Origin: Gemmataceae bacterium
Lineage (GTDB): Bacteria > Planctomycetota > Planctomycetia > Gemmatales > Gemmataceae
Length of the DNA stretch: 47,228 bases
NCBI GenBank assembly: GCA_019748295.1
Contig: JAIEPT010000062.1
Location: 1 to 47,228 of the forward strand
Reading direction: 5' to 3'
The position numbers and the translations under genes are program-made. Below, one piece after another: positions 22,973 to 27,464 of the stretch. How positions within the stretch are numbered: position 1 is the stretch's first letter; the number at the start of each line of letters is the position of its first letter. The notes beneath the pieces were generated by a model, which did no database searches, was not told the origin of the DNA, and worked only from the letters and a program-made list of their open reading frames with translations.

Positions 22973-24052
22973 TTAGTACTTCATCATCACGCTTAGGCCC
23001 ACCGCGTCTTGCATTGCGAGCGGAGCGAGTTGGAAGCGGCTATGCTCCATGTCCGTCTGAAAGACGCTGTGCGTCGCAACGACGGCGATCGCGTAACCCA
23101 GAGCAACTTGGCTGAAGTAATTGCGGTCGTCGTTGATGCGGGCGACGGGCGTATAGAGCGAACCCGCTACGAAGAGAACTTTGAGGGCGTACGAATCGGT
23201 CATGTACGCCGCGGTGAGCAGCGGCACGGCGCCGACATACGCATGGCCGGCGACGCCTTCGCGAGTGCGGATCGGCTGCCAGTAGCTAGACCCATCGCCC
23301 GGCCGATCGCCGCCCAGGCCATATTGCAGAACGCCGACCGCAGGGGCGCCCACGATGAGGGCTCGCAGCGATTTCGTGCCGAAAGTCCGCAGCGTGCCGC
23401 CAGCCGGATAATCTTCAAGGATTTTGCCGACGACGGCTCCGCCGATGAGCACGCCCCCCGTCCAACGCCAGTCGCCGAGTTGATCGTTGCCGAAGCGGAA
23501 AATCTGGTCGGAGCGTTCATTGCGGACACGCCCCTGCCACCAATCGCGGATGCCGGTATCGGCACGCGTGTTTGCTACCGGCGCGGCCGCGATCACAGCG
23601 ATGCCGACGCACAGCAGGTTGGGCGTCGTGTAGAAATGGCGGAAGTCTTCCCCGCTGCGAAACGCGGTCTCGGTCGCTTCGTCCCGATAGTCCATCAGCC
23701 ATTCTTGCCAAGTGCGAGGAACATGACGGGTGCGATCCACGTCCATCACCTCCGCCGGCGCTGCCATGGGATCCCAAGGACGCAACGGCGCCAATTCCGC
23801 GATCGACCATGCACGGGGGCCGAGCACCGGAACGATTGCCTGTTCCTTCACGCGCGGCACATTGGGAATCTCTTCCGGCACCACCACGCGGGGCAACTGC
23901 GGGACGACTTCGCCTCCCAGCGGAGGGGGCGGAAACTGCACGTTCGCATCGGGCAAGAAGTCGAGCGGCGGCGGCCGATCCTGAGCGCTCGCAGGGCGAA
24001 CGCAGTGCACCGCGACCCACGCCGACAACATCATGAGCACGATACGACGCAT
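22973..24052 (-). CDS. PAP2-like membrane protein with altered catalytic motifs
   Basis: 359 residues. A signal peptide ([23 protein letters not shown]) is followed by a Pro-rich stretch (to about 70) and a C-terminal half with several hydrophobic segments. Three motifs resemble the PAP2 (type 2 phosphatidic acid phosphatase) signature: YGLGGDRPG for the K..RP motif, VAGHAYVGA for PSGH, and [16 protein letters not shown] for SR..H..SD. In the last, the catalytic His position is Asn. The family removes phosphate from lipids; with the third-motif His missing this protein may be inactive or bind without catalysis. The family call is by motif only. Confidence 0.55.
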
Positions 24053-24235
24053 CGCGACACGCTCCTCCGGAAACCAACGTCCGCTGTGTTTATCGGCGAT
24101 TCGGGTCGTGAGGAAGAATCGGATTGGGGAATCTGTAACGAACCTGCCGAAAACGCCGTCGCTACGACCGGACGACTTTGCGCTGTTTGCTCAGATTGCC
24201 AAGAGAATGACGATTTGGAAAATGCCCGCCCAACC

Positions 24236-24264
24236 TTGCCGGCGTGGGAAGCCGCCGTCATAAT
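24236..24264 (+). promoter_or_regulatory. Possible promoter for the DAHP synthase attenuator
   Basis: TTGCCG (24236-24241) and CATAAT (24259-24264) are separated by exactly 17 bases. Transcription would begin near 24271, about 26 bases before the leader ORF, giving a 5' leader of about 277 bases. Found by eye. Confidence 0.4.
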
Positions 24265-24296
24265 GGAGCCATTGGATCGGACTGAGCAGAAATGCC

Positions 24297-24413
24297 ATGC
24301 ACTCCCCTGGAACCAATGCGACGCTCGTGAACCGGAAGAATTCCGGCGTGGCGTTTTATTGGTTTTATTTCGGGCCCTACGGGGTTCCTGGGAGATTGGC
24401 GTCCGCCGGTTGA
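24297..24413 (+). CDS. Aromatic leader peptide of a DAHP synthase attenuator
   Basis: A 38-residue open frame, starting [17 protein letters not shown] and continuing [12 protein letters not shown]. Codons 20-25 read Phe-Tyr-Trp-Phe-Tyr-Phe with another Tyr at 28, so all three aromatic amino acids occur in one run; Trp is a single codon. It ends at TGA 24411-24413, 16 bases before the palindrome at 24430. It is in a different frame from the DAHP synthase. Ribosome stalling on these codons when aromatic aminoacyl-tRNAs are scarce is the expected sensor. The ribosome-binding site is weak (GAGCAG about 8 bases upstream) and the ATG at 24292 in another frame is an alternative start, giving only 12 residues. 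Confidence 0.7.
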
Positions 24414-24450
24414 TCGAATCGAAATACCGAACGCCAAAGACCCTGGAACC
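24305..24450 (+). promoter_or_regulatory. Antiterminator and competing helices of the attenuator (segments 1-3)
   Basis: CCCTGGAACC at 24305-24314 (segment 1) and again at 24441-24450 (segment 3) can each pair with GGTTCCTGGG at 24383-24392 (segment 2), at 9 of 10 positions. The 2:3 pairing extends through TTGGCGT (24396-24402) with ACGCCAA (24431-24437). Segment 2 begins just after the aromatic codons, so a ribosome stalled there leaves it free and 2:3 can form. A ribosome at the stop codon covers part of it, freeing segment 3 for the terminator. Confidence 0.65.
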
Positions 24451-24477
24451 TTGCAAGGTTCCAGGGTCTTTGGCGTT
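24430..24477 (+). terminator. Attenuator terminator hairpin, perfect 48-base palindrome
   Basis: 24 bases from 24430 (AACGCCAAAGACCCTGGAACC and on) are mirrored exactly to 24477, followed by TTC with TTTT at 24476-24479. Segment 3 (24441-24450) pairs with segment 4 (24457-24466, GGTTCCAGGG). The T-run is short for an intrinsic terminator. The palindrome lies 71 bases before the DAHP synthase start. Confidence 0.75.
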
Positions 24478-24526
24478 TTCCCGTCCATGGTTATTCCCCA
24501 GCCTGGGCCGCGATTTCACGAATGGG

Positions 24527-24542
24527 GATTCTTCGGAGAATC
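24527..24542 (+). promoter_or_regulatory. Small hairpin over the DAHP synthase ribosome site
   Basis: GATTCT and AGAATC flank a TCGG loop, so the GGAGAA ribosome-binding site (about 9 bases before the ATG at 24548) lies in the loop and right arm. It might add translational control, but a 6-base stem is weak. Confidence 0.3.
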
Positions 24543-24547
24543 GAACG

Positions 24548-25561
24548 ATGATCGTCGTCATGAAGGCCGGGGCGAAGCCGCACGAAGTGGATCATGTCGT
24601 CCAGGAAGTGGAACGACTGGGATTGAAAAGCCACATCATCGTGGGCTCCGACAGGACAGTAATCGCCGCCCTGGGCGAAAAACGGGATGGCGCGAAACAA
24701 GCCCTCGAAACCGCGGCCGGAGTGGAGAAAGTCATGCCGATCCTCGCCCCCTACAAGATGGCCAGCACCGAAGTGAAGAAGGAACCTACCATCGTGCCGT
24801 CGCTCGGCCTCAAGGTGGGCGGCGGCACGATCGGCGTCATTGCAGGGCCTTGCTCCGTCGAGAGCAAGGAGCAAATCCTGCAAGTGGCTCGCATCGTCCG
24901 CGAAGCGGGGGCGGCGGGGCTACGCGGCGGCGCTTTCAAGCCGCGAACCAGTCCGTACAGCTTCCAGGGGATGAAGGAGAAAGGGCTCGAACTGCTCGCG
25001 TTGGCCCGCGAAGAAACCGGGCTCGCGATCGTCACCGAGGTGATGGCGCCCGAGCAGGTCGCCATGGTCGCCCAGTATGCCGACATCCTGCAAGTGGGCG
25101 CCCGCAACATGCAGAACTACCCGCTGCTCGAAGCCGTGGGCGTGGCGAACAAGCCGGTGCTTCTTAAGCGAGGCCCCTCCGCCACCATGGACGAGTTCCT
25201 CCTCGCGGCCGAGTACATCCTCAAGACGGGCAACACGCAAGTGATGCTCTGCGAACGCGGCATCCGCACCTTCGAAGACCACACCCGCTTCACCCTGCCC
25301 CTCGCGACCGTTCCGTACCTGAAGCAAACGACGCATTTGCCCGTAGTCGTCGATCCGAGCCACGGCACCGGCAAAGCGAGCCTCGTCGCACCGATGGCGG
25401 TCGCCGCCGTCGCTGCTGGCGCCGATGGCATCATCATCGAGGTCCACCCCGATCCGGAGCATGCGTTGAGCGACGGCTTCCAGGCGCTGACGCCGCCGAT
25501 CTTCAGCCAGATGATGGCCAATTGCCGCAAGGTGGCGCAGGCGTTGGGCAAGACGATGTGA
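24548..25561 (+). CDS. aroF: 3-deoxy-7-phosphoheptulonate (DAHP) synthase
   Basis: 337 residues; start at ATG 24548 ([22 protein letters not shown]), with GGAGAA upstream. The open frame runs much further upstream, but that stretch is antisense to the PAP2-like gene and includes the attenuator. It condenses phosphoenolpyruvate with erythrose 4-phosphate, the first committed step of aromatic synthesis. A ferredoxin-like N-terminal regulatory domain (about 1-70) precedes the barrel. Core motifs are [51 protein letters not shown] and [11 protein letters not shown]. This is the DAHP synthase/KDO8P synthase-like type with an N-terminal domain, as in Thermotoga, which is usually feedback-inhibited by aromatic amino acids. 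The gene symbol is by function; the paralogue letter is uncertain. Confidence 0.95.
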
Positions 25562-25587
25562 CCGCTTCGGATTTGGGAGGGCGAGGC

Positions 25588-25686
25588 GGGCGAGGCTCCT
25601 GCCGAGCCGGCGTTGCTAAAAACCCACGGAAAAATCAGCGTTTGGCGCAGCGAACAGTACCCGGCCGCTCGGCAGGAGCCTCGCCC
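25588..25686. repeat. Inverted repeat, 19-base perfect arms
   Basis: GGGCGAGGCTCCTGCCGAG at 25588-25606 is mirrored exactly at 25668-25686. It lies between the convergent ends of the DAHP synthase and the redoxin-fusion gene. Confidence 0.85.
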
Positions 25687-25706
25687 TGCCGGCCTCTTGC
25701 TGCGGT

Positions 25707-27464
25707 CTACTTCTTCTTCGGCGTGGTCTTCTCATCAACCCAGTAGAAGTCCACGTAGCCGATCATCATTTCGTCCCAGGTCTGGTCGCCCCAGCGGACT
25801 TCCTTGGTGGGATCGGGATTCGCGGGGTTGTCGAGCGAGTTGTCGAAGTGGGCGACGCACTGGATCTTGGAGCCCATCGGGACGAACAGCGGTTCCTTGA
25901 AGCGGTAGGTGTTCTGCCAATTGAAGTCGTACTGCGGGATCGAAAGGATCGTTTCCTTCTTGCCGTCGCCATGCACGAGATAGTAAGTGAAATCTTTGCC
26001 GCGCACGTGCATGTGCGGATAAAGGGAAAGGACCACGGCATCCTTGAAGGCGGGGATGGACGACGTGATCGTCTGGTTCGGCTCTCCCGGCGGGATCTTG
26101 ATTTTCGTGTTGGCAATGCCGTGATTCACGACGCTTTGCTTGGGCGGCTCCTTGCAGAAGACCAGGCCCACTTCGGAGCAATCCAACTCTTCCTTGCCCG
26201 TCGCCGTGTAGTGCATCTGGAACACGATTTCGGCTCCCGCCGGGATCTTGCGGCCCATGCCTTCGGGGAGCACCAAAGGCTCCGCCCCTGGCGCGGTTGA
26301 GACGAGCCAGACCGGCGTCTTGAGGAAGCTCTTCGGATCGCGATACGAAATGATGATGTGATGCACGACCGCCCGGTTGCCCGGCCTTGTTTCCGCGGAC
26401 TGCACCCACATGTCTTCCTTGAAGTTCGTCTTCGTCGCGAAATATTTGTAGCGGATCGTTCCCTTCGCCGGCACTTTGCAGGTCTCCGGCATTTTGAAGA
26501 CGACATCTGGTTTTCCGATGCGCCAGCCTTCTTCGAAGGTCGGCGCTTTCGGTTCGGTCTTGGCGTCGCCGCGTGGGGCGCCGGCGTCCACCCAGGCGAG
26601 GATCGTGTCGGTTTCCTCCTGCGACAGCCGGCGTTCGTTGGCGAAATGTCCGAAACGCGGGTCGGCATGCCACGGCGGCATCGTCCGGCGAGCGACCACT
26701 TCGCGGATCATGGCCGACCAGTTCGACGCGTCGTCAAAAGTGAGCAGCGGAAACGGCGCGGAGGTGCCCGCGTGATGGCAGTCGGCGCATCGCGAATGCA
26801 GAATCTTGGCAACGTCCTTGGCAAAGGTCGGTCCTGCTTTCGCATCCGCTCGGCGGATCGGCGTGATCAGACAACCCGCCGGTTCGGTCTCGGCCACGGT
26901 TACCTTCTTGGAAGCAATCACCTCGTCGATCGCTTCGCGCAGATCGTGCCGTTTTGCTTCGTCGCGGCGATAATCCTGGCCAATACGATCGTCGATGCGT
27001 CCGCGGTAACGGATCGCCATGCGGTGGTCGAGCACCACGACTTCCGGCGTCCGCTTCGCGTCGAATTGCGCCAAGGTGGTTTGGGTCGAATCGATCACGG
27101 CGGGAAACGCGAGCTTGTATTCCTTGACGTGCTTGGCGACATCCTTCGCATTGTCCGCGGGGGAAGGATACACGCCGAGGAACTGCACCTTCTTGTCCCG
27201 GTATTGGTCGGCCAGTTCATTGAGCGTCGGCACATAGCCGTTGCCGATGGGGCAGCGTGTGGACATGAAGACGACGACGGTCGCCTTGGAGTCCTGTACA
27301 TCGGCGAGTCCGACCGACTTGCCTTCGGGAGTGCGAAGGACGAAGGGGGCGATGCGTCGCCCGATGCCGCGCTCCTTGGCCGCCTTGCCGTCGCCGCCGT
27401 AGTTTTGGGCGAAGGCCGGGGCCGACAAGACACCAAGAGCCGCGAGAATCAAATACCATCGCAT
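25707..27464 (-). CDS. Redoxin, cytochrome c-like and copper monooxygenase-like fusion, secreted
   Basis: 585 residues; start at 27464 (MRWYLILAALGVLSAPAFAQN), with GGAGGAATG upstream and a clear signal peptide. Three parts are visible. Residues about 30-190 are a thioredoxin/AhpC-type redoxin with one active-site Cys (MSTRCPIGNGY, Cys71). A single heme c site CADCHH follows (Cys226, Cys229, His230). The C-terminal half has His/Met motifs like copper type II ascorbate-dependent monooxygenases: VVHHIIISYRD, FQMHYTATG, LYPHMHVRGKD. This combination is known from planctomycete genomes as a redox protein of unknown substrate. The last two modules suggest an electron-feeding heme next to a copper site; the reaction is unknown. 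Confidence 0.75.
   Translation of the reverse strand: MRWYLILAALGVLSAPAFAQNYGGDGKAAKERGIGRRIAPFVLRTPEGKSVGLADVQDSKATVVVFMSTRCPIGNGYVPTLNELADQYRDKKVQFLGVYPSPADNAKDVAKHVKEYKLAFPAVIDSTQTTLAQFDAKRTPEVVVLDHRMAIRYRGRIDDRIGQDYRRDEAKRHDLREAIDEVIASKKVTVAETEPAGCLITPIRRADAKAGPTFAKDVAKILHSRCADCHHAGTSAPFPLLTFDDASNWSAMIREVVARRTMPPWHADPRFGHFANERRLSQEETDTILAWVDAGAPRGDAKTEPKAPTFEEGWRIGKPDVVFKMPETCKVPAKGTIRYKYFATKTNFKEDMWVQSAETRPGNRAVVHHIIISYRDPKSFLKTPVWLVSTAPGAEPLVLPEGMGRKIPAGAEIVFQMHYTATGKEELDCSEVGLVFCKEPPKQSVVNHGIANTKIKIPPGEPNQTITSSIPAFKDAVVLSLYPHMHVRGKDFTYYLVHGDGKKETILSIPQYDFNWQNTYRFKEPLFVPMGSKIQCVAHFDNSLDNPANPDPTKEVRWGDQTWDEMMIGYVDFYWVDEKTTPKKK

Follow-up and report, generated by a model that had tools for sequence, protein, structure and literature searches.

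A conserved candidate attenuator with a mixed aromatic leader upstream of a DAHP synthase gene in Gemmataceae

The window analyzed here, a stretch of 47,228 nucleotides from a Gemmataceae bacterium, very probably carries a ribosome-mediated transcription attenuator in front of its DAHP synthase (3-deoxy-7-phosphoheptulonate synthase) gene, in which expression of the enzyme would be set by how much charged Phe-, Tyr- and Trp-tRNA is available. By sequence comparison, the predicted element is a short ORF with mixed F/Y/W codons, a segment 2 behind the aromatic run, alternative 2:3 and 3:4 pairings, and the concerted change of these segments among relatives. An attenuator had been proposed in an earlier sequence-only reading of the window, and the conserved leaders, the 2:3 pairing and the concerted segments 2, 3 and 4 lend support to that interpretation.

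Organization of the locus

The features of the locus, all on the forward strand, are the following:
24236..24264, +, sigma-70-like promoter candidate (TTGCCG-17-CATAAT), with a predicted RNA start near 24271
24297..24413, +, leader ORF of 38 codons (from the ORF list; aromatic leaders are kept upstream of orthologues)
24305..24314, +, segment 1 (CCCTGGAACC), a copy of part of segment 3 (inverted-repeat search; locus-specific, not conserved)
24354..24371, +, aromatic codon run TTT TAT TGG TTT TAT TTC (FYWFYF), the presumed stall site
24379..24405, +, segment 2, 5' arm of the antiterminator, within the leader ORF, 7 nt past the aromatic run
24430..24453, +, segment 3, 3' arm of the antiterminator and 5' arm of the terminator (inverted repeats)
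24454..24477, +, segment 4, 3' arm of the terminator (inverted repeat)
24476..24479, +, short T-run TTTT, two T of which lie inside the palindrome
24548..25561, +, DAHP synthase, type I, with an N-terminal ferredoxin-like domain (NCBIfam, Pfam)

The product of 24548-25561 matches NCBIfam NF006421 (490 bits) and TIGR01361 (388.6 bits), both over the cut-off, as well as Pfam PF00793 (DAHP_synth_1) and PF18152 (the N-terminal ferredoxin-like domain). DAHP synthase is the first enzyme, and the entry, of aromatic amino acid synthesis. The 38-codon leader ORF (24297-24413) was found as the sequence-only reading describes it, codons 20-25 reading Phe-Tyr-Trp-Phe-Tyr-Phe and codon 28 Tyr, and its stop codon ends 42 nt past the aromatic run. 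It has no Pfam match. The ribosome site, already suspected to be poor, is indeed weak, and a convincing one was not found for this ORF. The gene on the 5' side of the leader (22973-24052) is divergent, so that a promoter is needed in 24053-24296 if the leader is co-transcribed with the DAHP synthase gene. The candidate at 24236-24264 is a weak match, with 9/12 consensus letters; two sites are present in the region vs 0.2 in shuffles.

Paired segments and the candidate terminator

Segments 3 and 4 form an inverted repeat with arms of 24 nt (24430-24453 and 24454-24477) that are 100% complementary and have no loop, and the 3:4 hairpin is predicted at -41.0 kcal/mol. By plain arithmetic, a loopless perfect 24-bp inverted repeat is expected by chance ~2e-10 times per 47 kb. 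The perfect 48-base palindrome noted earlier is therefore present as claimed; the TTTT said to follow it is not, as two T lie inside the palindrome and just TT, then CCC, stand beyond it. The earlier doubt about the short T-run is justified, the T-run being weaker than in most relatives, whose T-runs are longer; those of L006 and L023, for instance, are better. The consensus terminator scan of 24053-24560 returned no site. The evidence for an intrinsic terminator consists of the 24-bp hairpin here and of a hairpin behind the leader in 40/41 related loci, to be set beside the short T-run and the empty scan.

The 2:3 helix, which had been said to reach beyond 24383-24392, has arms of 23 nt (24383-24405 and 24428-24450) that are 78% complementary. 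Its duplex energy is -30.5 kcal/mol vs -17.2 +- 3.0 kcal/mol for shuffled sequences, with 0/500 shuffles as strong. Folding of the RNA from 24271 to 24548, which had been suggested as a check, gave -126.1 kcal/mol (z -5.9), and 0/200 shuffles were as low. No second copy of the leader stretch was found in the 6.47 Mb assembly, and it is therefore not a dispersed repeat.

Segment 1 (24305-24314) repeats 24441-24450 letter for letter and is a perfect complement of 24457-24466; read against 24383-24392, it can pair at 9/10 positions. Among the three pairings proposed (1:2, 2:3 and 3:4), the last two are borne out, being conserved; the first has one mismatch here and goes beyond shuffles at 5% in just 5/26 representative loci, that of the window (L001, 12/300) among them, which means that relatives do not in general keep a 1:2 helix. 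In the classical four-segment, trp-type attenuator, segment 1 pairs with segment 2 as a conserved pause or protector hairpin; segment 1 was rejected as a conserved element of this kind.

Proposed mechanism

In the proposed mechanism, a ribosome would stall on the run when any of the aromatic tRNAs is uncharged, leaving segment 2 free. Free segment 2 would pair with segment 3 as the latter emerges, the terminator would be blocked, and the polymerase would enter the gene. With all three tRNAs charged, the ribosome would pass over segment 2 and reach the stop close by, the 2:3 helix would be prevented or undone, 3:4 would form, and transcription would end near 24480. Such a device would need a ribosome close behind the polymerase.

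With segment 4 in place, the terminator is predicted to be much the stronger fold at the locus, and it stays the favoured one when the aromatic run is masked. Antitermination must therefore be kinetic, decided during transcription. The sequence-only reading had the ribosome at the stop codon covering segment 2. This did not hold in general: for an assumed ribosome footprint, the share of segment 2 under cover is 50% or more in 11/26 loci, and ~40% here. With cover at the stop only partial, release of the terminator probably needs a ribosome moving through segment 2.

Aromatic leaders in relatives

The comparison comprised 112 loci with related DAHP synthases, some from whole genomes of the window's own family and the others from a public collection of genomes; the leader scan covered the 98 upstreams that were distinct and at least 150 nt long. 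A leader ORF was counted when it had at most 90 codons, lay within 350 nt and held at least 5 F/Y/W per 8 codons. Such clusters of product codons in a short upstream ORF, a feature of attenuators, were found in 40/98 sense upstreams, in 0/98 antisense ones and in 36/1960 dinucleotide-shuffled ones; at 6/8 the counts were 36/98, 0/98 and 2/1960, respectively. Two of the 40 positives (L015, L016) were scored on the wrong ORF, their true leaders (FGYRITYWHYY) reaching 4/8, and one locus missed by the 350-nt limit (L112) joined the set later by hand, so that 41 loci were carried forward. Loci with both leader and hairpin belong mainly to Planctomycetota and Geobacter-like bacteria, and the leader of L037, whose record is named Gemmataceae, is the same as that of L005, from the family of the window.

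The leader peptides vary around the run (FYFWYYF, AYSYWFY, FGYWFYF, AYSFWWF, NFYFWYGFYF, SYYYYYWYF), hence it is the kind of codon that is conserved and not the peptide. All three of F, Y and W are present in the 12-codon scored stretch of 26/29 leaders. The Phe codons of the 29 leaders are TTT and TTC in a ratio of 78 : 18, against 41 : 155 in the downstream DAHP synthase genes (Fisher p 3e-23); the preference for TTT may reflect an unstructured or slowly read stretch.

Conservation and covariation of the segments

A terminator-like hairpin (the first strong one past the leader that has a T-rich tail) was found in 40/41 loci; L075 (Aminicenantes) has an aromatic ORF without a terminator and was excluded before the pairing counts. 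An earlier rule that took the strongest hairpin chose a later one in Geobacter-like loci (26/39 at 10/200 or better) and was replaced. With the first-hairpin rule, the 2:3 pairing was better than in shuffles in 30/40 loci at 5% and in 24/40 at 1%. Ten loci failed at 5%. Seven are near-identical Geomonas-type loci, for which even this rule settled on a later hairpin; the other three, L024, L084 and L112, stood at 34-35 of 500 shuffles. A rule blind to the leader gave a hairpin in 40/40 leader loci vs 22/57 leaderless ones, and 2:3 pairing at 5% in 23/40 vs 3/57.

Measured from the end of the run, segment 2 starts at 0-19 nt and the stop codon is complete at 21-51 nt in the 26 representatives. 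The sequences contain an antiterminator whose 5' arm lies beside the stall codons and which competes for pairing with the terminator. The three segments change in concert. At one position, segments 2/3/4 read C/G/C in 7 loci, T/A/T in 11 and T/G/C in 1; at another they read G/C/G in 11 and A/T/A in 5 (the pairs were taken from predicted duplexes). Some positions near the terminator loop, which pair solely in 2:3, still vary in a complementary manner. MAFFT alignments were tried for pair counting and set aside, as segment 2 was misaligned by eye in several rows; for this reason an anchored table and a permutation test of cognate against non-cognate duplexes were used instead. For 12 loci of the family, cognate 2:3 duplexes average -23.4 vs -18.3 for non-cognate ones, an advantage reached in 0/20,000 permutations; the corresponding counts are 0/20,000 for 16 planctomycetes and 18/20,000 for 10 other bacteria. 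Near-identical rows (e.g. L016, L021, L046, L048, L050, L065 and most Geomonas loci) were left out of the permutation, tree and 26-representative analyses. A lack of conservation of the aromatic run and of the paired segments in close relatives had been named as a refutation of the attenuator reading; the comparison did not refute it, the aromatic run, the 2:3 pairing and the concerted segments 2/3/4 being kept upstream of orthologous DAHP synthases.

These data bear directly on the simplest rival, in which the palindrome is a mere terminator or insulator and the aromatic ORF a chance frame. The poor T-run and weak ribosome site of the window locus agree with it, and so do the 12/28 family orthologues without a leader, and L026, which keeps a terminator-like hairpin with no leader. 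A chance frame does not account, however, for leaders in 40/98 upstreams vs 36/1960 shuffles and 0/98 antisense sequences, nor for a segment 2 that covaries with segments 3 and 4, and we consider this explanation very improbable.

Distribution of the leader

Among the 28 family orthologues, 14 have the full set, 12 are without a leader and two have an incomplete upstream: L007 is truncated at the end of its contig and shows segments 2-4 by eye, and L029 has just 19 nt. No orthologue was found at E <= 1e-120 in 67/95 family genomes searched. In four orthologues from another family of the order (L163-L166), no leader was seen by eye. The DAHP synthase paralogues of the family (~50% identical, one of them in the genome of the window) have a leader in 0/20 upstreams at 5/8, and seven reach 4/8, in long frames. 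In a tree built from 87 DAHP synthases, the leader trait needs 12 changes vs 24.9 in shuffles and falls into two clusters, one of planctomycetes and one of Geobacter-like, Desulfobacterales and Nitrospirota loci; in the clade with Omnitrophota it is found in 0/30 rows. The pattern is compatible with a single origin followed by many losses and also with origins in two or more places.

A locus scored as negative, L057, has a Phe-only/Phe-rich ORF (MNFHFDFAIRFDFAFTGARAGVR) at most 250 nt upstream, followed by a terminator-like hairpin (by eye); it is possibly a single-residue variant, under the threshold used. A trp attenuator was also sought in the family, and 0/30 trpE upstreams had 3 W in 8 codons (two of them, L152 and L158, have less than 70 nt of upstream). 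In 5/30 (L134, L135, L137, L138, L140), all of one genus, a frame ~300 nt ahead of the open frame of trpE reads YFSHSFWY.

Other elements upstream of DAHP synthase

A conserved stretch of ~80-120 nt lies upstream of DAHP synthase in L019, L014, L018, L026 and others, and in the genome of the window at G000:C258:14908-14986. It comprises an extreme Shine-Dalgarno-like sequence (AAAGGAGGTGATC), a possible 10-codon ORF (MCKSNQVGLH-like), a GC-rich hairpin and a terminator. The stretch is found at one place per genome in 28/95 family genomes, and in 15/28 of them its coordinates place it no more than ~500 nt ahead of the DAHP synthase orthologue. It has no Rfam match at the gathering score and only chance-level ones below it, and no tRNA or tmRNA was identified in it. 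In L060 and L074 (Peptococcaceae/Pelotomaculum), repeated triplet-like GGTAG/GTAG motifs precede a terminator-like hairpin, and by eye they resemble a site for an RNA-binding attenuation protein. In several loci (L062, L064, L065, L067, L071, L073) a second terminator-like hairpin is present behind the attenuator, ~21-36 nt before the gene, possibly a tandem terminator or an element of translation control.

Other explanations for the hairpin region

Control of translation, with the hairpin region hiding the ribosome site of the gene, would find a place for the second hairpin that stands 21-36 nt before the start in some Geobacter-like loci. In the window, however, the palindrome ends ~70 nt before the start codon and the minimum-energy fold shows no pairing with the start region, which leaves this explanation about as unlikely as a chance frame. 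Attenuation by a T-box, a riboswitch or an RNA-binding protein, in place of a stalled leader ribosome, is slightly less probable still. A terminator and an antiterminator are common to all such devices, and DAHP synthase is a regulated pathway entry, as this explanation would have it. It leaves unexplained, however, why aromatic codons are conserved in frames of differing sequence, and an Rfam search of 23000-26000 with E up to 10 gave just chance-level matches, without any amino acid leader (e.g. Trp_leader) or T-box; at the gathering score, six relatives likewise gave no leader or T-box family. Finally, a real long frame (23009-25561) coding for an N-terminally extended enzyme can practically be dismissed, because, open as the frame is upstream of the gene, its upstream 1.0 kb overlaps the divergent ORF, the proteins of relatives also begin with MIVVMK and their matches are confined to 1-337, and the domains begin at residue 1.

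Possible transcription-translation coupling

A separation of transcription from translation has been claimed for Gemmata, according to the passages cited (PMC6212462, PMC5394234). A ribosome-mediated attenuator conserved in Gemmataceae, as the comparison suggests this one to be, argues for coupling at least at the DAHP synthase gene, and such coupling would follow if the device works. The broader proposal is that the pan-aromatic attenuator is an old companion of a DAHP synthase lineage shared by Planctomycetota, Geobacter-like bacteria and Nitrospirota, and works in living Gemmataceae cells; to us the case for it and the case against it are evenly balanced. If true, ribosomes would have to be present on the nascent transcript, and the two processes could not be strictly separated there. 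Caution is in order, as the orthologue (at E <= 1e-120) is missing from 67 of the 95 family genomes. An attenuator of this type works only with a ribosome following the polymerase, and a reporter in a cultured relative would therefore test coupling directly. A leader with codons for all three aromatic amino acids would let a single sensor serve a pathway that has three end products, and a conserved attenuator in Planctomycetota would widen the range of such devices.

Comparison with known attenuators

The mechanism is classic, and what looks new, from the sequence comparison, is its conservation in a bacterial group for which no report was found in the open-licence PMC literature. No report of an aromatic attenuator in either Planctomycetota or Geobacter was found there, and the subscription literature may hold a Geobacter case. 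The predicted element resembles trpL and pheL of E. coli in its leader peptide, stall codons, 2:3 antiterminator and terminator-like 3:4 hairpin. Those leaders, in contrast, sense a single amino acid and control branches, not the pathway entry. Segment 1 is conserved in the E. coli trpL and pheL attenuators, whereas in the DAHP synthase leaders it is not (5/26). The leader of E. coli ilvGMEDA is mixed and reads several end products of the branched-chain pathway at once; the present leader is similarly mixed, with aromatic products in place of branched-chain ones.

Rfam has a Trp leader family (PMC4046766), and unlike the E. coli trp leader the window locus is without an Rfam match. The closest system is the aroR leader before aroF (DAHP synthase) of Corynebacterium glutamicum, the attenuator of Neshat et al. 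2014, which, in the passages cited, has a Phe-Tyr-Phe leader and responds to limitation of Phe, not of Tyr (PMC11802643, PMC4046766). Both systems would be ribosome-mediated attenuators with aromatic leader codons before a DAHP synthase gene. They differ, as far as AroR can be compared by its description, in that the run in the window holds Phe, Tyr and Trp, and belongs to another phylum.
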